DNA of 36,989 nucleotides, taken from NCBI GenBank assembly GCA_030529455.1, contig JAUMWV010000009.1:10688-47676 (forward strand), in the 5' to 3' direction. A program made the position numbers and the translations under genes. This DNA comes from Propionibacteriaceae bacterium. GTDB taxonomy: Bacteria > Actinomycetota > Actinomycetes > Propionibacteriales > Propionibacteriaceae. This document shows positions 3,994 through 35,581 of the stretch, in pieces (position 1 is the stretch's first letter; each line of letters starts with the position of its first letter). The notes under the pieces were generated by a model. That model did no database searches, was not told the origin of the DNA, and saw only the letters and a list, made by a program, of their open reading frames with translations.

Positions 3994-4287
3994 GTGGCCT
4001 TGACTCCCGACGACATCGCTCGGCTGTCCGATCTGGCCCGCATCGACCTGAGCCAGGAGGAATGCGTCAAGCTCGCCCCGCAGCTTGAGGTGATCCTGGA
4101 CGCGGTCGCGCGGGTCAGCGAGGTCGCCGCCGCCGATATCCCACCGACCTCACACGCGCTCGCCCTCGCGAACGTGTTCCGCCCCGACGAGGTGCGGGCG
4201 TCCCTGACGCAGCATCAGGCGCTCAGCGGGGCGCCCGATGCCGAGGACGGCCGGTTCCGGGTGCCACAGATTTTGGGGGAGCAGTGA
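3994..4287 (+). CDS. gatC: Asp/Glu-tRNA amidotransferase subunit C
   Basis: 97 aa, the usual GatC length. The start [19 protein letters not shown] and the later [12 protein letters not shown] are typical. GatC wraps around GatA and stabilises the GatAB complex. GTG start at 3994 has CAGGAG 7-8 nt upstream. Its end overlaps the GTG of gatA by 4 nt (GTGA), so the subunits are made by coupled translation. Confidence 0.95.
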
Positions 4288-5798
4288 GCGATTACACCCT
4301 GTTGACCAAGAGTGCCGCGGAGCTGGTGGCCCTGATGGAGGCGGGCCAGACCACCTCGGCCGAGATCACCCAGGCTTGCCTGGACCAGATCGAAGCGGTT
4401 GACGGCGAGGTGCACGCCTTCCTCGCCGTGGACCGGGAACGGGCCCTGAGCCAGGCCCGCGCGATCGATGCGCGCCGCGCGGCGGGGGAGCGGCTCGGCC
4501 CGCTGGCAGGCGTCCCGATCGCGGTCAAGGACAACTTCTGCTACCAGGGGCTGCCGACGACCTGCGGGTCGCGGATGCTGGAGGGCTGGGTGCCACCCTA
4601 CGACGCGACGGTGGTGCGGCGGCTGATCGAGGCTGGGCTGGTGATCCTCGGCAAAACCAACATGGACGAGTTCGCCATGGGGTCCTCGACCGAGACCTCG
4701 GCCTTCGGCCCGTCCCGCAACCCGTGGGACCTGGAGCGGATTCCCGGGGGTTCCGGCGGCGGCTCCTCGGCCGCGCTCGCTGCCTTCATGGCTCCCCTGG
4801 CGATCGGCTCCGACACCGGCGGTTCGATCCGCCAGCCCGCCGCCGTCACCGGCACCATCGGGGTCAAGCCGACCTACGGCGGGGTGTCCCGGTACGGCAA
4901 CATCGCCATGGCCTCCTCCCTGGACCAGCCCGGGCCGTGCGCCCGGACCGTGCTGGACGCGGCCCTGCTGCACCAGGTGATCGGCGGCCACGACCCGATG
5001 GATTCGACCTCCCTGGAGGCGCCCGTCCCGCCCGTGGTGGAGGCCGCGCTGAACGGCGAGGTTGCGGGGCTGCGGATCGGCGTGGTGAAGGAACTCGGCG
5101 GGGAGGGCTATCAGCCGGGCGTCGAGGCACGGTTCGCGGACGCGGTCGAGATGCTGCGCGGCCTGGGGGCGGAGATCGTCGAGGTCAGCTGCCCCCACTT
5201 CGACTACGCCTTCGCCGCCTACTACCTCATCATGCCCAGCGAGGTCTCCAGCAACCTCGCCCGGTTCGACGCCATGCGCTACGGGCTGCGCCTGGGCGAC
5301 GACGGCCAGGCCAGCGCCGACCAGGTGATGCGGGCCACCCGTGGGTCGGGTTTCGGTGAGGAGGTGAAGCGACGGATCATCCTGGGCACCTACGCCCTGA
5401 GTAGCGGCTACTACGACGCCTACTACGGTTCGGCGCAGAAGGTGCGCACCCTGATCTCCCGCGACCTGGAGGCCGCGTTCTCCCGCTGCGACGTGCTGGT
5501 CTCGCCCGCGACGCCCACGACCGCGTTCCGGCTGGGGGAGCGGATCAGCGACCCGCTGGCCATGTACATGGCCGACCTGTGCACCATCCCGTCCAACATG
5601 GCGGGCAACGCCTCGGCGTCCTTCCCGATCGGGCTGGCCGGCGAGGACGGCCTGCCGGTCGGCCTGCAGGTCATGGCCCCGCCGCTGGCCGACGACCGGC
5701 TCTACCTCGTCGGCGCGGCGCTGGAACGCGCCTTCCGGGACCGCGGCCTGACCACACCGATCCCGCCCCTGCCGAACACGAAGGTGGTGTCCGCATGA
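4284..5798 (+). CDS. gatA: Asp/Glu-tRNA amidotransferase subunit A
   Basis: 504 aa amidase-signature glutaminase that releases ammonia for transamidation. The Ser-cisSer-Lys triad is intact: Lys82 in IAVKDNF, Ser157 in GGSGGGSS and Ser181 in [12 protein letters not shown], each three residues later than in S. aureus Gat[16 protein letters not shown] is also conserved. The presence of GatCAB implies that Gln-tRNA and/or Asn-tRNA are formed by the indirect route. Overlaps gatC and gatB by 4 nt each. Mycobacteria have pfkA between gatA and gatB (from memory); here there is none. Confidence 0.96.
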
Positions 5799-10236: not shown

Positions 10237-11063
10237 CCGATATCCCCGAGCTGGCCCGGGAGCGGCTGGCCAGACCCCGGCCGTTGCCGGGCCTGTATTC
10301 CGGCAATGTTCGGGCGGTGTTCGAGCGCGGGCTGAAGGCGATCGCGTCCCAGAACTGGACGATCGTGGTGTCGGGTTTCTTCGAGCCGGTGCTCTACCTG
10401 CTCGCCATGGGCCTGGGCGTGGGCGCGCTGGTGGGGCAGGTGAGCGGGCCCGGCGGGGTCCCCACGAGCTATGTGGCCTATCTGGCACCGGCGCTGCTCG
10501 CCACCTCGGCGATGAACGGCGCGATCTACGACTCGACCTGGAACGTGTTCTGGAAACTGCGCTACGCCAGGCTGTACGAGACCATGCTGCAGGCCTCGCT
10601 CGGGCCGCTGGACGTCGCGCTGGGCGAGATCCTCCTGGCGCTGCTGCGCGGGGCGCTCTACTCGTCGGGGTTCCTGTGCGTCCTGGCCGCCATGGGGCTG
10701 GTCACCTCCTGGTGGGCGCTGCTGATGGTGCCGTGCGCGCTGCTGATCGCGCTGGGTTTCGCGGCGCTGGGTATGGGGGTGACCAGCCTGGTCACCAGCT
10801 TCCAGCAGATGGACCTGGTGAATTTCGCGATGCTGCCGATGTTCCTGTTCTCGGCGACCCTGTACCCGATCACGGTCTTCCCCTCAGCGATCCAGTGGAT
10901 CATCATGGCCCTTCCGCTGTGGCACGGCGTCGAGCTGATGCGCCACCTGGCGGTGGGCCACGCCGAGGCGCTCACGGCGGTGCACGCCGCCTATTTCGTG
11001 GGCATGACGGCCCTCGGGCTGGTGTTCACGACGCTGCGCCTGCGCACGCTGTTCCTGCGCTGA
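10233..11063 (+). CDS. ABC-2 type exporter permease 2
   Basis: 276 aa, ATG 10233 overlapping the preceding stop as ATGA. Topology parallels permease 1: cytoplasmic N-terminus of ~45 residues, then six hydrophobic segments. FFEPVLYLLAMGLGVGALV, MLPMFLFSATLYPI and LPLWHGVELMRHLA match the NodJ-like signature. The shared pattern with permease 1 suggests an old duplication and a heterodimeric channel. The gene is followed by a strong bidirectional terminator. Confidence 0.86.
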   Translation: MTDIPELARERLARPRPLPGLYSGNVRAVFERGLKAIASQNWTIVVSGFFEPVLYLLAMGLGVGALVGQVSGPGGVPTSYVAYLAPALLATSAMNGAIYDSTWNVFWKLRYARLYETMLQASLGPLDVALGEILLALLRGALYSSGFLCVLAAMGLVTSWWALLMVPCALLIALGFAALGMGVTSLVTSFQQMDLVNFAMLPMFLFSATLYPITVFPSAIQWIIMALPLWHGVELMRHLAVGHAEALTAVHAAYFVGMTALGLVFTTLRLRTLFLR

Positions 11064-12537: not shown

Positions 12538-12608
12538 CGACGTGTAGTTCAGCAGCAGAACACCGGGCTACATTCCCGGAGGGCGCAGGGGCAGCACCTG
12601 CCACGTCG
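12538..12608 (+). ncRNA. tRNA-like cloverleaf RNA upstream of an unknown gene
   Basis: 71 nt folding exactly as a tRNA. Acceptor stem 12538-12544/12602-12608 (7 bp); linker T8-A9 (12545-12546); D stem 12547-12550/12558-12561 (4 bp, loop AGCAGCA); A26 at 12562; anticodon stem 12563-12567/12575-12579 (5 bp, loop CTACATT with T33, nominal anticodon ACA); variable loop AGGGC; T stem 12585-12589/12597-12601 (5 bp, loop GGCAGCA). All 21 pairs are Watson-Crick. A14, G15 and C48 allow the U8-A14 and G15-C48 core contacts. It is not a standard tRNA: no D-loop GG, no T-loop TTC, pyrimidine at 37, and no CCA next to the acceptor. It may be a separate RNA, a processed one, or a structured 5' leader of the gene starting at 12636. 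Confidence 0.75.
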
Positions 12609-12635
12609 GCTCACCACGGTAGCGAGGGGAGATCC

Positions 12636-14789
12636 ATGGCCCACGGTTATGTGCACCTGCAGCTGGCGAAGGCGCTGCAGACCGCCGCCGGGCACGAGGA
12701 CCCCGAGACCAGGGCCCGCGCCGACGCCAGGGTCGCGGACTGGGTGCGCACCATGCAGGCGATCGACAGCGGTGCCGTGACGGTCGGTTCGCGGTCGCCG
12801 TTGCGCGGCTTTCCGGCCTGGGTGACCCCCGAAGTGCTGCGCGGGGGGTTCGCGACCGGTGAGGCGGAGGCCGCTGGCCCCCTGACCAGGCACGAACGGG
12901 AGCGGGCCCGGCGCCACAGCCTGCCCGAGCGCCGCGACGCGGTGTTCGCGTCCTACCTCACCGACGAGGGGATGGCCGAGTTGCAGGCGCTCCTCGCTGG
13001 CGGCAATTACCGGATCGGCGTGCCCGAGGAGGCGGCGCTGCTGGTCGTGGCGGCCCTGTTGCGCGCCGGTCACCGCGGCGCGGCGCTGGAACTGCTGGAG
13101 GAGCTGTCCGCCTACGCCGGGCAGCTCCGGTTCACGCCGCAACCGGACCGGCCCCCGCGGCGGGACAGCGGACAGGTGTTTCGGCGGACGGTCGACGAGG
13201 TGTCCCAGGCGCTGCGCACGGTACGCGCCGAGCCGAGGATCGAGGCCCAGCGGGAGGCGCTGACGGTGTGGCTGCCGCTAACCGACAAGGTCGTGGAGTT
13301 CTGGGTCACGCACGCCGGTGAACCGTCCTGGTCGCCCGCGACGGCGGCCCAGGCCCAGGCCCTGGTGGACGAGTACGACCGGGCCTGCGCCGACCACGCC
13401 CGGTGCACGAAATACCGCAACCCCAAACACAACCTGGCGATCCTGGTCGCGGTGCTCCGGGACAGCGTTGGCCGGACCCCCAGCCAGGCCGGGCTCGCCC
13501 GCGTCCGGCACGTCATCTCGTGCATCCGCGCCAAGCGTGGCCTGCCGTCAGAGGAGAGCTGCCGGTCGTTGCGGTCCAGGCAGGCCGCCGACGCCGCCAG
13601 GCCGTCCCACGATCAGCTGGCGCAGGTGGCGATCCGGCGCCTTGAGGCCCGCCGCGCCGACGAGGGCATCCCAGACCCCGGCGAGGTGAGCCGCCCGGTG
13701 GCCGAGCGGGAATCCTCTCGCGCCCTGCCCGCGGGCACACCGATGCCCGAGGGGGTCCGGCGCAAGATCTGGCTGGGCTGGTCCGCCACGCTGCCGGACC
13801 TGATCGCGGGCGGGGTCGTCCCGTCGGCCGAGGTGATCGCCGAACTGCTCCCGGCGATCACGGCCGAACAGGTCGCCGCCGGTTTCCCCGACCCGCAGGT
13901 GGGGCGGCTGATGGGTGCCTGCTACGAGGCGTTCCGGAGGCGGCGCAGCCTGCTGCTGGTCAACCTGGCCTCCCAGGTGAGGTTCGAGGAACTGCCGTGG
14001 GTGCGGCGGGCCAGCCTCCTCGGCGGGCGGGAGCGGGTCGGACAGCCCGGCGAGGTCGCCCGCTGGGTCGCCGCCCTCTCCCTGGACAGCTTCCCCGGCA
14101 CGATCCTGCCGAACCCCTTCATCAGCGAACTCGCCACGCTGTTCCAGGCAGGGGAGGAGCCCGTCACGCTGACGGAGGAACTCGCGGCCGACATCTTCAT
14201 GAGCCAGTTCGCACCGAAGTTCCTCGCCGCCGCCCACACCGCCGCGCGGCTGCTGCGCGGCAGCCTGTACGAACGCTATTACGGCCTCGACTACGGCCGG
14301 GTGCTGACCCTGTCCACACCCGCGGAGTTCGGCGCGCTGTGCGGGGCGGAGGCCATCCAAGACAAGTGGTCCATCACGGGGAACCGGCGGGTCATCGAAC
14401 GCGCGCAAGTGCTGACCACCCACAACCTGGCGGCGCTGGTCACGGCAGGCGTCACCCCGTCTCGCCCATGGGCCGACCTGGCGGTCGAAGCGGCGCAGGT
14501 CTGTGCGCGCTCGGGCCGTCTGGCCCGCGACCCGCGCAACCGCCCGCGCGCGATCAAGGACGCGGCCTATGCCTGGCGCCAGGCCGTGTTCTTCTGCTCC
14601 ATGGCAGACCCGTCTCAGATGCCAGGCATCGTGTCGCGGATGGCCGGGCTGGCCTACGCCCAGGAATGGCCCCTGGCCCAGCTGCGCTCAGACCTCGAGG
14701 GCTGCTGGGGCGGCGAACGGGTGGAACCCTTCTTCGCCTGGACGCCGGGCAGCCGCCGGGAACCTCCGGGTTCACAGTCCCAGGTCTAG
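12636..14789 (+). CDS. Uncharacterised 717-aa helical protein, linked to tRNA-like RNA
   Basis: Not recognised as any named family. It is soluble, rich in Ala, Leu and Arg, and predicted by eye to be almost wholly alpha-helical, with no signal peptide, membrane segment, Walker motif or nuclease signature. Landmarks that look conserved-like: SYLTDEGMAELQALL (~106-120), the charged HARCTKYRNPKHN (255-267), RRRRSLLLVNLASQV (434-448), ERYYGLDYG (546-554), LTTHNLAALV (593-602) and AYAWRQAVFFCSM (645-657). Basic stretches could bind RNA. ATG 12636 was chosen because GAGGGGAG lies 5 nt upstream; the frame stays open to 12423 but that part is low-complexity and would run through the tRNA-like element. 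The tail overlaps the convergent gene by 18 nt. Confidence 0.8.
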   Translation: MAHGYVHLQLAKALQTAAGHEDPETRARADARVADWVRTMQAIDSGAVTVGSRSPLRGFPAWVTPEVLRGGFATGEAEAAGPLTRHERERARRHSLPERRDAVFASYLTDEGMAELQALLAGGNYRIGVPEEAALLVVAALLRAGHRGAALELLEELSAYAGQLRFTPQPDRPPRRDSGQVFRRTVDEVSQALRTVRAEPRIEAQREALTVWLPLTDKVVEFWVTHAGEPSWSPATAAQAQALVDEYDRACADHARCTKYRNPKHNLAILVAVLRDSVGRTPSQAGLARVRHVISCIRAKRGLPSEESCRSLRSRQAADAARPSHDQLAQVAIRRLEARRADEGIPDPGEVSRPVAERESSRALPAGTPMPEGVRRKIWLGWSATLPDLIAGGVVPSAEVIAELLPAITAEQVAAGFPDPQVGRLMGACYEAFRRRRSLLLVNLASQVRFEELPWVRRASLLGGRERVGQPGEVARWVAALSLDSFPGTILPNPFISELATLFQAGEEPVTLTEELAADIFMSQFAPKFLAAAHTAARLLRGSLYERYYGLDYGRVLTLSTPAEFGALCGAEAIQDKWSITGNRRVIERAQVLTTHNLAALVTAGVTPSRPWADLAVEAAQVCARSGRLARDPRNRPRAIKDAAYAWRQAVFFCSMADPSQMPGIVSRMAGLAYAQEWPLAQLRSDLEGCWGGERVEPFFAWTPGSRREPPGSQSQV

Positions 14790-29636: not shown

Positions 29637-30706
29637 GCGGCCTGGCTGACCTGCCGCTGCGTCCCGAACTGGTGGGGCAGGAGCCCTATGGCGCGCCGCA
29701 GCTCGACGTCGCCCACCAGCTGAACGTCAACGAGAACCCCTACCCGCCGAACGACGCGATCCGGGCCGAGATGGCCGAGGCGATCCTGAAGGTGGCCGCC
29801 CAGCTCAATCGCTACCCGGACCGGGAGGCCCGCGACCTGCGCCAGGCGCTCGCGGCCTACCTGGGCGCTGGGCTCGGCCCCGACAACATCTGGGTCGCCA
29901 ACGGCTCCAACGAGATCATGATGCACCTGCTCGGCGCCTTCGGCGGTCCGGGGCGCACCATGCTCACCTTCGGCCAAACCTATTCGATGTATCCCGAGTA
30001 CGCGCGCGACAGCCACACCGGCTACGTCGCGGTCAGCCGGGACCGCGACTACCGGATCACCCGCGACCTCGCGTTGGCCGCGATTGAGGCCCACCGCCCC
30101 GACGTGATCGTCGTCACCACGCCCAACAACCCGACCGGGACGCTGACGAGCCTCGACGTCATCGACGAGCTGTGCCGGGCCAGCGACGCCATCGTCGTGG
30201 TGGACGAGGCCTACCAGGAGTTCGCCGACGCCCCCTCGGCGATCGGGCTGCTGCCCACCCACCCCCGCCTGGTGGTGAGCCGCACCATGAGCAAGGCCTT
30301 CGCGCTGGCCGGCACCAGGGTCGGCTACCTCGCGGCCTCACCGGCGGTGGTGGACGCCTGCCGCATCGTCCGGCTGCCCTACCACCTGTCGGCGCAGACC
30401 CAGGCGCTCGCCCAGGTCGCGCTGGCCCACGCCCCCGAGATGCTGGCCAAGGTCGCGGCGCTGCGCGACGAGTGCCAGAGCCTTCAGTCTTGGCTGCGGG
30501 AACAGGGCTACGACGTCATCGCCTCGCAGGCCAACTTCTGCCTGTTCGGCACCTTCGACGACCGCCACGCGGTGTGGCGTCACCTGTTGGATCGCGGCGT
30601 GCTCGTTCGCGAGACCGGCCCGGCGGGTTACCTGCGAGTGTCGGCCGGGACACCGGATCAGATGGCGGCGTTCCGCGACGCCTTGAGTGAGTGGAAAGGG
30701 AACTGA
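29633..30706 (+). CDS. hisC: Histidinol-phosphate aminotransferase
   Basis: 357 aa fold-type I PLP enzyme. [10 protein letters not shown] at the N-terminus, [17 protein letters not shown] and Lys221 in [18 protein letters not shown] are all as expected. It converts imidazole-acetol phosphate to histidinol phosphate using glutamate. ATG 29633 overlaps the hisD stop. Confidence 0.96.
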
Positions 30707-30707
30707 T

Positions 30708-31288
30708 ATGCGCACGGCCACGATCGAACGCACGACGAGCGAGTCCAGCGTCACCGTCAGCCTCAACCTGGACGGGACCGGCCGCGCCACCATCAGCACG
30801 GGGGTCGGGTTCTACGACCACATGCTGACGGCCCTCGCGAAACACTCCCTCATCGACCTGGACGTCGCCACCACCGGCGACATTCACATCGACGGGCACC
30901 ACAGTGTTGAGGACACGGCCATCGTCATCGGGCAGGCGCTGCGCCAGGCCCTCGGCGACAAGTCGGGGATTCGCCGCTTCGGGGATGCCCTGGTTCCCCT
31001 GGACGAGGCCCTCGCCCAATGCGTCGTGGACGTCGCCGGGCGGCCCTACGCCGTGTGCTCCGGCGAACCGGACGGCCAGGTCTACGCCCTGATCGGGGGC
31101 ACCGGAGCGCCCTATGCCGGGTCGATGACCTATCACGTAATCGAGGCCCTGGCGCTGAATGCCGGGCTGTGCGTCCACCTGCGGCTGCTGGCCGGACGCG
31201 ACCCCCACCACATCGTTGAGGCCCAGTTCAAGGCCTTGGCCCGGGCGCTCCGGCAGGCCGTGGAACGAGCACCAAGGGCAGTCTGTGA
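30708..31288 (+). CDS. hisB: Imidazoleglycerol-phosphate dehydratase, 3' end frameshifted
   Basis: Monofunctional IGPD core of ~186 codons: [32 protein letters not shown] and [24 protein letters not shown] (metal-binding histidines intact). The usual end, roughly RDPR...PSTKGxL-stop, is not in frame. Instead STKGSL-stop appears in the +2 frame at 31268-31288, and its TGA overlaps the hisH GTG as GTGA, as expected for the ancestral end. About 25 nt appear missing near 31266. Read as given, the hisB frame stays open to 32465. The STKG segment is part of the mobile C-loop over the active site, so activity may be impaired unless this is a sequence error. ATG 30708 has AAAGGG 7 nt upstream. Confidence 0.85.
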
Positions 31289-31887
31289 CCAGAGTCGGGC
31301 TGCTCGACTACGGTTCCGGCAACCTGCATTCGGCGGCGCGGGCCCTCGCCGCGGCCGGGGCCGACGTGTGGCTCTCCGACCGCCGCGACGAGCTGTGGCG
31401 CCTGGATGCTCTCGTGGTGCCCGGGGTCGGGGCGTTCGCGGCGTGCATGGCCGGGCTGCGCTCCTGCGGGGGAGACGGTCTGGTGCTGGACTGGGCGGCC
31501 TCCGGGCGCCCGCTGCTCGGGATCTGCGTCGGCCACCAGATCCTGTTCGACGAGGGCCGCGAGCACGGGACCAGTACGGCCGGGCTCGGCATCCACCCCG
31601 GCGCGGTGGAGCGACTGGACGCGGTGCGCCTGCCACACATGGGGTGGAACGCCGTGGAGCCCGCACCGGGCAGCCGCCTGCTGCGCGGGCTCGCGGACCA
31701 GAGGTTCTACTTCGTGCACTCCTATGCCGCCACGGCCTCCGGGCCCGGGGTGAGCACCGCCAGGCACGAGCGGGCCAGCTTCGTGGCCGCGCTGGAGCGG
31801 GACAACGTGTCCTCGACGCAGTTCCACCCCGAGAAGTCCGGCCCGGCTGGGCTGCGCCTGTTGCGGAACTGGCTGGCACCGCGGTGA
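31285..31887 (+). CDS. hisH: Imidazole glycerol phosphate synthase, glutaminase subunit
   Basis: 200 aa class I amidotransferase. Nucleophile Cys81 in LLGICVGHQ (the usual Met after Gly is His), catalytic His181 and Glu183 in [20 protein letters not shown] and LPHMGWN are typical. It feeds ammonia to HisF, which is not in the window. GTG start overlapping the ancestral hisB stop. Confidence 0.95.
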
Positions 31888-32465
31888 CCGGGTCCGCCGA
31901 ACCCTTGGCGTGGGTGCGGCCCGTGGTCCTGGACGCCTCACCCGCTCGTCTCGAACCTATGGCACCCGGGGATGCCGCAGGCCTGGCGGTGGCCGTCGTC
32001 GATGGCCAGCTGTGGCGGCTCAACGTCGCCTCCGCGCCCACCCCTGACCGGGTCTCCGCCTACATTGAAGAGGCGCTCGCCGATCGGTGCCGCCGCCCGT
32101 TCACCGTGTTCAGCGCGGGAAGGATCGTCGGCACCACCAGCTATTACAACATCCTGCCGCAGGTGGCGCGCCTAGAGATCGGCCACACCTGGTATGCCAG
32201 GAGCGTGCAGCGCACCGCGGTCAACACCGCCTGCAAGGTCGCGTTGCTCGACCACGCGTTCGGGCCGCTCGGTGCGCGGGTCGTCGGCTGGCGCACGGAT
32301 CTCGCCAATACGGTCTCCCAGCGTGCCATCGAGCGGCTGGGCGCCCTGCGCGACGGCGTCATCCGCGGCGACCGGCTCAGGAAGGACGGCACGATCCGCG
32401 ATACGGTGGTGTATTCCATGACCGCAGCCGAGTGGGCCATTCACCGGGCCCGCCTGGTGCAGTAG
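31884..32465 (+). CDS. GNAT N-acetyltransferase, RimJ/RimL-like
   Basis: 193 aa. [17 protein letters not shown] at the start, then [41 protein letters not shown] and [20 protein letters not shown] follow the RimJ/L pattern; the substrate could be a small amine or a protein N-terminus. The acetyl-CoA P-loop is the diverged segment around SVQRTAVN. It lies between hisH and hisA, starts with GTGA overlap, and is in the same frame as hisB. Confidence 0.85.
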
Positions 32466-32475: not shown

Positions 32476-33237
32476 GTGACTGATCCCACCGCGTCCGAAC
32501 GCTTGATTCTGTTACCCGCTGTCGACGTCCAGGGCGGCCAGGCCGTGCAGCTCGTCCAGGGGGTGGCAGGGTCGGAGAAGGTTTTCGGCGACCCGCTGTC
32601 CGCCGCGCTGCGCTGGCAGGGTTCGGGGGCCGAGTGGATTCACCTGGTAGACCTCGACGCGGCCTTCGGGCGCGGCAGCAACGCCGAATTGATCCACGAG
32701 ATGATCGGCCGTCTCGACGTCAAGGTCGAGCTGTCCGGCGGCATCCGCGACGACGAATCCCTCCGCCGCGCGCTCGCCACCGGGGCCGAGCGGGTCAACA
32801 TCGGCACCGCGGCGCTGGAGAACCCCGCCTGGTGCGAGCGGGTCATTGCCGAGTATGGGGAGCGGATCGCGATCGGGTTGGATGTGCGCGCCGAGCGGCT
32901 CGCGGCCCGCGGCTGGACCACCGAGGGCGGCCTGTGGACCGAGACCCTGGCCCGGCTGGACGCCGCCGGATGCCCGCGCTTCGTCGTCACCGACGTCAGC
33001 TCCGATGGCATGCTCACCGGCCCCAACCTAGAGCTGCTGGGCGCGGTGTGCGCCCGCACCAGCGCCAAGGTGGTCGCCTCCGGCGGCATCTCCAGCCTCA
33101 GCGATTTGCGGCAGCTGCAAGGGCTGGTCAGCCTCGGCATCGAGGGCGCGATCATCGGCACAGCGCTCTACCTGGGCAACTTCACCCTGGAGGACGCCCT
33201 CGTCGTCGCCTCCGGAAGGGAGCCCCATCATGGCTAG
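32476..33237 (+). CDS. priA: PriA-type isomerase (HisA, probably also TrpF)
   Basis: 253 aa barrel. Catalytic Asp17 ([10 protein letters not shown]) and Asp177 ([14 protein letters not shown]), with SGGIRDD (Arg91). RGW at 145-147 matches the Arg and Trp that let mycobacterial PriA switch between ProFAR and PRA. No trpF is seen beside trpE, trpC, trpB or trpA, so this enzyme probably serves both histidine and tryptophan synthesis. GTG start, probably leaderless. Confidence 0.9.
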
Positions 33238-35581
33238 GCCAGCCGCCCCGGCGAGCCTGTTCGCCGCGGACCGTGGCGTCCACACCCCACCGCTGCTCAC
33301 CGGGCGGCTGCGGGACCTGCTCGCGGGCCGCAAGATCGCCATGACGGGGGTCACGGGCTTCATCGGCGAGCAGCTGCTGTGGAAGGTCCTCACCGAACTG
33401 CCGGACACCACCACCGCCGTCCTGGTGCGCCCGAAGGGGTCGGTGACGGCAGACCAGCGCGTCGCGGCCCTGCTCCGCAAGCCCATCTTCGCCGAGCTGG
33501 TGCGCGCCGCCGGATCGGTGGACGACCTGATGCGCGAGCGTGTCGAGGTGATCTCCGGCGACCTACCCGCGGTGCCGACGCTGCCCCGCGACATCGACAT
33601 CCTGGTGCACTGCGCCGGGGACGTGTCCTTCGACCCGCCGGTCGACGAGGCGTTCAAGACCAACGTCATCGGCACCAAGGCGCTGCTGGAACGCTTCCTC
33701 GAATCGGCCAGCGACGCCGACGGCAACCTGGAACGGATCCCGCACTACGTGCACATCAGCACCGCCTACACGGCCGGACGCAGGCGCGGGCCGATCCCGG
33801 AGGCCCCGCACGTCCACGAGGTGGACTACGTCGCCGAGACCGAGCGGGCGCTGGCGATGAAGGAATACGTCGAGAACGCCTCCCGCACCAGCGAGCAGCT
33901 CACCCGGCTGCGCCGCCAGGCCGAGCGGTTGCACCGCCCGGCCGGGTTCCTCACCACCAGCGAGGACACCGAGCGGCGCCGCCGCGAGTGGGTGAAACAG
34001 CAGCTGATTAGCGCTGGCACCGAACGCGCCCGTTCCCTCGGCTGGACCGACGGGTACACCTTCGCCAAGGCGATGGGGGAGCGGGTCGTCACCGACCTCG
34101 CGTCCCAGATCAAGGTGTCGGTCGTGCGCCCGGCCATCGTGGAATCCAGCCTCCGCCACCCCTACCCCGGGTGGATCGAGGGGTTCAAGATGGCCGACCC
34201 GATCATCCTGGCCTATGGCAAGGGACAGCTGCGGGAGTTCCCCGCCTCGCCCGATGCCGTCATCGACCTCGTCCCGTGCGACCACGTGGTCAACGCCATC
34301 GTCGCGGTCTGTGCCACCGAGCCGAAGGCCGGTGAGCCGGAGTTCTACCACTGCTCGTCCGGGGCGCGCAATCCGTTGACGTTCCGCGGTATCTACGAGC
34401 ACATCCGGGAATATTTCCTGGCCCACCCATACGTCAGCGGTCGAGGAGCCGTGCCGCTGCCGGAGTGGCGCTTCCCCGGCGCCGAGCCCGTGGAGCGGGT
34501 CATGTGGGTGGCCGACAAGGCCCAGCAGATCGGCAGCCGGGTGCTGTCCTTCGCCCCCCGGGGAGCGAAGGTGCGCCGCTGGACGACCAGCCTGGACCGG
34601 GCGGCCCGGCAGTTGGCTTTCCTCCGCCGCTACCTGACGCTGTACGGGGAGTACCTGCAGTCGGAGCTCCACTTCGTGGACGACTGCACGCTGGCCTTGC
34701 ACCGCTCCCTGCACCCCGACGACGTCGATTCCTTCGCTTTCGACACCGCGGCGGTGGACTGGAAGCACTACCTGCAAGGCGTCCACGTCCCGGCGATCGC
34801 CGACCCCCTGCGACGCCTGGAGGCGGCCAGGAAGAAACGCTCGGCCAGGGCCGCGACCTACCGGAAACTCCCGGCCTCCGCTCCCGGCACCGTGCTGGCC
34901 GCGTTCGACCTCGACGGCACCGTGATGGCGACCAACGTGGTCGAGACCTACCTGTGGACGCGGCTGCCGGAGCTGTCCCCATTCGGCAAGCTCGCCGAAG
35001 TCGCCAAGGTGGCCTCACAGCTGCCGCTGTACCTGGGAGCCGAGCGGCGCGACCGCGGGGTGTTCCTGCGTTCGCTGTACCGCCGCTACGCCGGTGCCGA
35101 CCTGGCGGCTCTGGAAGCCTTCGTCGACGAGCGCATGGCCCCGTTCGTCCTCGACCGGATGTCGCCCGAGGCGACCCGGCGGGTGCGTGAGCACCGCGAC
35201 GCCGGGCACACCACGATCCTGCTGACCGGAGCGATCCGCCCGCTCACCCGTCCGCTGCAGGGCCTGTTCGACGTCATCGTCGCCGCGGAACTGGCCACCG
35301 GCCCCGACGGCCGCTGCACCGGCTTCCTCACCGGTCCGCCGCTGGTCGGGGAGTCTCGTTCGGCCTGGCTCAGGCACTACGCGGCGCTGCACGACATCGA
35401 CCTGTCCCGCTCCTACGCCTACGCCGACAGCCACGTGGACCTGCCGATGCTGCGGTCGGTCGGTTCCCCCGTCGCGGTCAGCCCCGACATCGGCCTGATG
35501 CGTGCGGCTCAGGAGTCCGGCTGGTCCATCGTCGACTGGCCCTCCATGTCCCCCCTGCCCCGTTGGAAGATGCCCTCGTAA
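33230..35581 (+). CDS. Fatty-acyl-CoA-reductase-like / HAD-IB phosphatase fusion
   Basis: About 783 aa, two enzymes in one chain. Residues ~35-360 form an extended SDR of the NAD-binding-4 type: [13 protein letters not shown] (nucleotide), [18 protein letters not shown] and the catalytic YTFAK (Tyr276, Lys280). A helical FAR_C-like region follows (~380-530). Residues ~553-783 are a HAD-IB phosphatase with [11 protein letters not shown] (nucleophile Asp559), ILLTGA and [11 protein letters not shown]. The first half should reduce an acyl-CoA to aldehyde or alcohol; the HAD half may cleave a phosphate from a lipid or precursor. ATG 33230 overlaps hisA by 8 nt with GGAAGGG upstream. The pairing with the LarA-like gene 9 nt downstream suggests one pathway, not identified. 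Confidence 0.85.

Follow-up and report, generated by a model that had tools for sequence, protein, structure and literature searches.

In the 36,989-nucleotide (nt) window analysed here, which covers positions 10,688 to 47,676 of contig JAUMWV010000009.1 of a Propionibacteriaceae bacterium (GCA_030529455.1), a complete cloverleaf resembling a tRNA is encoded directly upstream of a gene for a 717-amino-acid (aa) protein. This cloverleaf appears to be one half of an undescribed RNA–protein family. It was found upstream of the protein in 73 of 75 distinct loci, its structure is under selection, and the anticodon is its changing part, with a tRNA body that is nearly frozen in the main clade. No description of this RNA–protein pair was recognised in the literature searched, which was mostly open-access and without preprints. 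The mechanism outlined further below is our proposal.

The mimic RNA occupies positions 12538..12609 of the forward strand and comprises cloverleaf positions 1-72 and the discriminator base G73 at 12609. The 7-bp acceptor stem (12538-12544/12602-12608) is followed by T8 and A9, a D arm with a 4-bp stem and the 7-nt loop AGCAGCA (with A14 and G15), and A26. The 5-bp anticodon stem CCGGG/CCCGG encloses the loop CTACATT (12568..12574, with T33 and T37), which places the triplet ACA at 12570-12572. The variable loop AGGGC (12580..12584, with C48) is nearly invariant, with entropies of 0.11, 0, 0, 0 and 0.22 bits across 68 copies proximal to the open reading frame (ORF). The T arm has a 5-bp stem and the loop GGCAGCA (12590..12596), which follows the family's usual form GGC[AG]GNA instead of TTCRANY. 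All 21 of 21 stem pairs are Watson-Crick, and the G15-C48 combination of tRNA is present in addition. Both the full cloverleaf with these marker bases and the absence of the D-loop GG and the T-loop TTC had been described in an earlier note on this DNA, and both were confirmed from the sequence.

The cloverleaf is the minimum-energy as well as the centroid fold (-29.2 kcal/mol, z -2.39), and 4 of 200 shuffled sequences folded equally well. Against the Rfam tRNA model RF00005 it scored 43.8 bits (E 2.9e-8, gathering threshold 29) when a 351-nt piece was searched. It was missed by ARAGORN and by a whole-window Rfam scan with fast filters at the gathering threshold. The tRNA match surfaced only in the short piece with laxer filters, and tRNA mimics may routinely escape such scans. 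Within its own genome, the family model R1 gave a single match at 93.6 bits, the window copy being part of the model, and 12 further matches at no more than 55.4 bits, every one an ordinary tRNA called by ARAGORN; in this search, 150 of 3507 first-look candidates were scored.

The association with the protein was followed across genomes. A contig scan yielded 72 protein loci; among 58 relatives searched, five genomes had matches, one of them being that of the window itself. Together, the window, L003-L005 and L008-L079 (L and G numbers are our handles for loci and genomes) make up 76 records but 75 distinct loci, since L003 and L039 are the identical locus. L039 was excluded from counts and alignment, except that it is still inside the 73 loci used for copy counts, and L009 is in the alignment but outside the 72-locus start-codon count, the divergence test and the anticodon tree. 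In all 73 loci with a cloverleaf but L073, the ORF-proximal copy ended no more than 150 nt from where the protein match begins. The distance in L073 is 708 nt; here the cloverleaf (4222-4293) is followed by CTTGTGA, the first in-frame start lies 545 nt on and the protein match begins at 5001, which looks like an insertion. As for the two loci without a cloverleaf, the sequence of L077 starts only 54 nt upstream of the match, and in L074 the match is confined to residue 153 onwards. The earlier note had proposed looking for protein loci with a missing cloverleaf or broken stems, and the losses examined turned out to be truncated or broken genes or the end of a contig. Further loci with the pair were found in two more Streptomyces genomes, in the more distant L083, in G051 (L006) and in the plasmid loci L160 and L161.

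An independent count came from 392 genomes of the genus of G185, searched with a strict cloverleaf pattern and the protein profile. We take this genus to be Streptomyces, since loci on named Streptomyces contigs reappear in it at identical coordinates. The protein was matched in 63 genomes (fragments included) and the strict cloverleaf in 49, with both present in 48 (Fisher p 5e-47). Fifteen genomes matched the protein alone, and 14 of them were inspected: 10 do have a cloverleaf, which deviates from the strict pattern, and four (G506, G513, G528 and G819) have partial protein matches without one. The fifteenth, G648, has a 56-residue match. In the only genome with the pattern alone, G646, an ATG and 17 codons follow the cloverleaf before the frame is closed by a stop codon, and no protein match was present in the remaining 328 nt of the contig. 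With crude gene calling across 71 loci, no conserved operon partners were seen, and no other gene family was common to more than 14 of them. No carriage by phages or viruses was found in phage records, or in viral contigs searched by protein or by RNA pattern. The protein is, however, present on 6 plasmid records; two of these were inspected, and both have the cloverleaf. Carriers of the pair include Streptomyces lavendulae CCM 3239 and S. canus.

At these loci, the fold is kept while the letters change. Over 90 copies (83 distinct), 99.7% of 1743 pair cells form, and pairing falls to 33-44% when the partners are slid out of register. Changes on both sides of a pair occurred at 12 of the 21 pairs, compared to a mean of 3.2 after shuffling, and none of 500 shuffles reached as high a value. 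The cloverleaf structure is therefore under selection. A chance fold, which the earlier note had already considered unlikely, is ruled out by the RF00005 score and by the conserved, covarying structure at homologous loci. The covariation upstream of homologues that the note had suggested as a check is present, as stem changes preserve pairing and even a divergent clade keeps the cloverleaf. A decayed ordinary tRNA was rejected as well, given the retention in 73 of 75 distinct loci with compensatory changes. The note's wider interpretation, a tRNA mimic tied to the neighbouring protein, is partly supported, namely by the locus association and the kept pairing.

In contrast to the body, the anticodon region is exchanged between loci. 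In the 68 ORF-proximal copies with 7-nt loops, positions 32-33 are invariant and positions 34-38 are exchanged; the entropy at 34-37 ranges from 1.0 to 1.6 bits, whereas most stem and variable-loop positions are near zero. At a protein identity of 80-90% (182 pairs), the anticodon differs at 44% of positions, compared to 26% at fourfold sites and 3% in the stems. At 90% identity or more (11 pairs), the values were 24% for the triplet, 12% for fourfold sites, 3% for the stems and 13% for the promoter. The triplet and the fourfold sites were equal at 70-75% identity (0.41 and 0.43), and in most other identity bins the promoter divergence was about equal to that of the triplet or higher. This divergence test was made without L005, L074, L077, L078 and L079 and left aside pairs with 6-nt loops. 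On a protein tree built with FastTree, a minimum of 40 anticodon changes (22 states) is needed for 70 loci. The proteins of L048 and L075 share 92.5% identity, yet their anticodons are CGG and UGA, and loops recur in distant branches, such as CTCGGGA in Bailinhaonella, Actinoallomurus and several Streptomyces groups. Frequent triplets are CUG, CGG, UGA, UCC, CUU and GUA, with GCA in the divergent clade. A changing anticodon on a conserved body is the reverse of what is expected within a tRNA isoacceptor family.

The divergent clade consists of seven Streptomyces loci with a shorter protein (488-625 aa) that is without the N-terminal region, at about 50% identity between its two groups. A cloverleaf was found at 7 of 7 loci (77.7-84.6 bits), with the ATG 2 nt behind. 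Here, five of the seven loops read CTGCACA, one reads CTGCAAA and one is a 6-nt form, and the anticodon stem changes by compensation (CCGAC/GTCGG, CCGAA/TTCGG and CCGGC/GCCGG). A loop that is kept while the stem changes, with the reverse in the main clade, argues against a merely free loop.

With regards to the function of the exchange, we tentatively favour, at somewhat less than even probability, an RNA–protein module in which real tRNAs are imitated by the exchangeable anticodon loop, which might serve as bait for enzymes that cut tRNAs. The likeness of the loops to real ones was measured against 43 native anticodons from one Streptomyces genome. The loop list is without L084-L100 and L178 onwards, and its 40 unique 7-nt loops include seven types entered by hand from the 392-genome scan, of which CTGTTCT and CTTCCTT occur only there. 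A native triplet was present in 36 of 40 unique loops, compared to 30.3 with columns shuffled (p 0.003), and 11 of 40 loops are identical to a native tRNA loop at 34-38, compared to an expected 5.6 (p 0.009, or 0.019 if 36-38 are shuffled as one block). Among the 36 loops with a native triplet, 20 also have the base 37 of the tRNA concerned, where 13.2 would be expected (p 0.002); the agreement at base 38 taken by itself was not significant (24 vs 20.4, p 0.09). Two results weigh against imitation: four of the 24 distinct triplets are non-native, the window's own ACA among them, and the excess of native triplets is weak when counted by distinct triplets.

Anticodons with A35 (Leu, Ile, Val, Met, Phe) are nearly absent, with 1 of 40 loops compared to 11 of 43 native triplets (p 0.004), or 1 of 24 by distinct triplets (p 0.044). 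For comparison, published cuts in Salmonella after DNA damage lie in the anticodon loops of tRNA-Trp(CCA), Tyr(GUA) and Cys(GCA), and also of Phe(GAA) and fMet (PMC7790460). The mimics do not copy Phe(GAA) or fMet, both cut in Salmonella. For VapC enzymes, cuts are described in Cys(GCA), Ser(CGA) and phage-encoded Trp, Gln(CTG), Glu(CTC) and Tyr, and also in Val(GAC), Val(CAC) and Ser(GGA) (PMC13273310). The mimic triplets overlap these published cut tRNAs only in part.

A second conserved property is the position of the start codon. An ATG is the first in-frame start codon in 67 of 72 loci and lies only 1 nt (6 loci), 2 nt (14 loci) or 3 nt (47 loci) behind the discriminator base, which leaves no space for a ribosome-binding site outside the cloverleaf. 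As the cloverleaf occurs in all three frames relative to the ATG, it is not translated, and a coding sequence mistaken for structure is ruled out. Among the exceptions are the window, L004, L005 and L067 with spacers of 22-26 nt, and L009, outside the 72, with 10 nt. In the window, the 26-nt spacer between G73 and the ATG, atypical in length compared to the 1-3 nt of most homologues, holds the Shine-Dalgarno-like GAGGGGAG (12624..12631, forward strand). The GGAGGG of the cloverleaf was considered as a ribosome-binding site after cleavage and dropped, because ordinary tRNAs have similar letters.

In 59 of 72 loci, a promoter-like TTG-N18-22-TANNNT precedes the 5'-most cloverleaf, with its end 6-12 nt away (a count made with no chance control), and no terminator was found between the cloverleaf and the protein gene in the window. 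Since the ATG abuts the cloverleaf, a promoter-like pair precedes it and no frame runs through, we infer that the RNA is excised and the mRNA probably left leaderless at most loci. Leaderless mRNAs are common in Streptomyces, with 264 listed for S. coelicolor (PMC4681348). The arrangement is reminiscent of mitochondrial tRNA punctuation, where the tRNA abuts the start codon and, once RNase P and RNase Z have excised it, the mRNA has hardly any nucleotides 5' of that codon or none (PMC11112386). The start codon abuts the 3' end of the cloverleaf in a like manner at those 67 loci, but not in the window (26 nt) or L009 (10 nt). However, the present case is bacterial and concerns one gene and a dedicated mimic rather than working tRNAs, with an excision that is presumed from the layout.

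Such an architecture would also suit a cloverleaf that is only a leader, that is, a cis-acting start signal that works through RNase Z release or through positioning of the ribosome at the AUG, with the loop as a free spacer. The ATG 1-3 nt from position 73 speaks for this, as does a loop divergence about equal to that of the promoter. Furthermore, the 5'-most cloverleaf is immediately preceded by CAT in 40 of 72 loci, and this triplet could pair with the complementary AUG downstream. We nevertheless consider a mere leader unlikely: the loops are biased to genuine tRNA loops, the divergent clade retains its loop while the stem changes, and both tandem copies and the 22-26 nt spacers (window, L004, L005 and L067) would be superfluous for a leader. 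The base before the CAT and the base after the ATG are T and A, respectively, in 20 of 37 single-copy cases. The CAT flank could close the start codon or mark the start of transcription.

Returning to the bait reading, the proposed sequence of events would begin with one to three mimic cloverleafs and the large helical protein gene, probably on a single transcript. RNase P and RNase Z, or equivalents, would free the mimic of about 73 nt and leave the leaderless mRNA, and the protein would bind the mimic by its constant body. The loop, being exchangeable, would then present a copy of a real anticodon and act as a decoy or bait towards factors by which anticodon loops are attacked or read. Candidate attackers are tRNA-cutting toxins from phages, from competitors or from the host's own toxin systems. 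Once bound, the protein may shield tRNAs by titration, or respond when the bait is engaged or cut. A more specific version is possible but doubtful: a sensor particle with a constant body whose loop is swapped to copy the attacked tRNA of host or phage, in which the helical protein would detect cutting or capture of the bait, and in which each mRNA would carry its own bait, released as the message becomes leaderless.

Type III toxin-antitoxin systems such as ToxIN consist of structured RNA units, sometimes in tandem, upstream of a protein gene. The family resembles them in having structured RNA upstream of the gene; two or three tandem cloverleafs are present in 14 of 73 loci, and the rest have a single one. 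It differs in that its units have the form of cloverleafs and its protein has no relation to known families, and no terminator was found between the parts in the window. The cloverleaf might accordingly be read as a type III-like RNA antitoxin, with the protein as a toxin acting on tRNA or translation and an anticodon that tracks the target tRNA. Besides the RNA unit or units directly upstream of the gene, the sporadic distribution in 63 of the 392 Streptomyces genomes and the plasmid loci described above fit such a system. Still, this is a rather unlikely explanation. Near-identical proteins carry different anticodons (L048 and L075), which would require the specificity of the toxin to be almost freely changeable, and L169 keeps its cloverleaf although the protein frame is broken. 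In addition, the protein family has no Pfam toxin match, and searches of Pfam, NCBIfam and PADLOC gave no match of the partner protein to type III toxin families. We know of no type III toxin that resembles a 717-aa helical protein.

The arrays show signs of duplication and decay from within. L061 has a decayed copy (4651-4722) in a tandem array, and L051 has identical copies with 6-nt loops at 4443-4512 and 4666-4735. Anticodon loops of 6 nt, unusable in ordinary tRNA decoding, occur in L003/L039, L009, L041, L051, L061, L067, L083 and L166.

Clues to the origin of the mimic come from its T loop. Over 120 distinct cloverleafs, 113 are without TTC and 7 have it. These 7 copies are confined to the distant members L004, L005, L006 and L083; 6 of the 7 also have the D-loop GG, all end in T73, and ARAGORN recognises 6 of 7 as tRNAs, each with an amino acid assigned. 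L051 and L043 have intermediate T loops (TGCGAGT and TGCGATC). Because distant members keep canonical T loops and others are intermediate, the mimic most likely descends from a tRNA and lost the elbow later, although the protein tree leaves the root unfixed. Compared to canonical tRNA (RF00005), the family shares the cloverleaf geometry, U8, A14, G15-C48 and U33, and reaches the score given above, but most members are without the D-loop GG and the T-loop TTC and combine a constant body with a variable anticodon. One could also imagine a dedicated tRNA, charged by a synthetase and donating its amino acid to the partner protein off the ribosome. The tRNA-like body and the canonical T loops of the four distant members, with their ARAGORN calls, agree with this. 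It is nonetheless very improbable, as the anticodon varies on an acceptor stem and G73 that are nearly constant in the main clade, so that no single amino acid is specified. Moreover, most members lack the D-loop and T-loop elements, and the protein is all-helical and without a recognised aminoacyl-transfer domain.

The partner protein (ORF at 12636..14789 of the forward strand, homologous loci n=72) starts with the ATG at 12636 and is predicted to be all-helical. The earlier note had found no recognised domain in this frame, which holds, as the window protein has no Pfam, NCBIfam or PADLOC match. A 43-member alignment, for which members were selected from the window and the 75 loci, gave only weak matches to unrelated models (1-4 members each), and 0 of 43 members match the anti-phage defence models of PADLOC. 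In the fold look-up, no significant match was obtained for the whole model against the PDB and viral models, or for the C-terminal half alone against the PDB, where a family missing from the list excludes nothing. Weak HEAT-like or exportin-like rows were not counted as evidence. Profile matches to frames of about 400 aa in other actinobacterial families (L084-L087, 49 to 73 positions, E 2e-5 to 7e-4) were weak and partial and were taken as chance rather than homology.

A helical protein encoded together with a tRNA-like RNA also recalls Ro60 and its Y RNAs. In such a particle, the mimic would be a scaffold or a gate to an exoribonuclease or structured RNA, and the anticodon would be incidental. 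Bacterial YrlA has a tRNA-like domain and has been proposed as a competitive inhibitor of an anticodon nuclease (PMC7790460). The likeness to YrlA with Ro60/Rsr is that of a tRNA-like RNA encoded beside the protein expected to bind it. Here, however, the RNA consists of a complete cloverleaf alone and is not embedded as a tRNA-like module in a longer RNA, the anticodon is exchanged and the loops are non-random. As the earlier note had stated for the window protein, the partner has no TROVE match, and neither has any of the 43 family members; matches to the TROVE model, at positions 288-354 of 442, occur in 26 of 41 Streptomyces genomes. For Y RNA families, the search of the 351-nt piece listed tRNA and one sub-threshold match on the opposite strand, with none at gathering in the window, and no rtcBA or similar conserved neighbour was seen around 71 loci with crude gene calling. 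A Ro60-like particle is thus improbable, and of the parallel to Ro60 and YrlA drawn in the note, a loose functional analogy stands. Likewise, the tRNA-Other of Bacillus cereus is a tRNA-like RNA outside translation. It is described as a pseudo-tRNA that belongs to a larger regulatory RNA at a genomic island (PMC3399842), whereas the present RNA is only a cloverleaf, is linked to a single protein family and has its anticodon exchanged.

Elsewhere in the window, three frames of the forward strand were noted for their domains. A 627-aa frame (190-2073) matches tRNA thiouridylase families (tRNA_Me_trans, MnmA-type) in its C-terminal part, with 268 residues ahead of it. One frame at 30687-32465 combines imidazoleglycerol-phosphate dehydratase and GNAT acetyltransferase domains, and another at 33230-35581 combines 'male sterility' NAD-binding and HAD hydrolase domains.

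If the bait reading is true, the record of loops in this family would list the tRNA anticodons that are attacked in soil actinomycetes. If the architecture alone holds, the family would represent a bacterial tRNA punctuation that yields leaderless mRNA.
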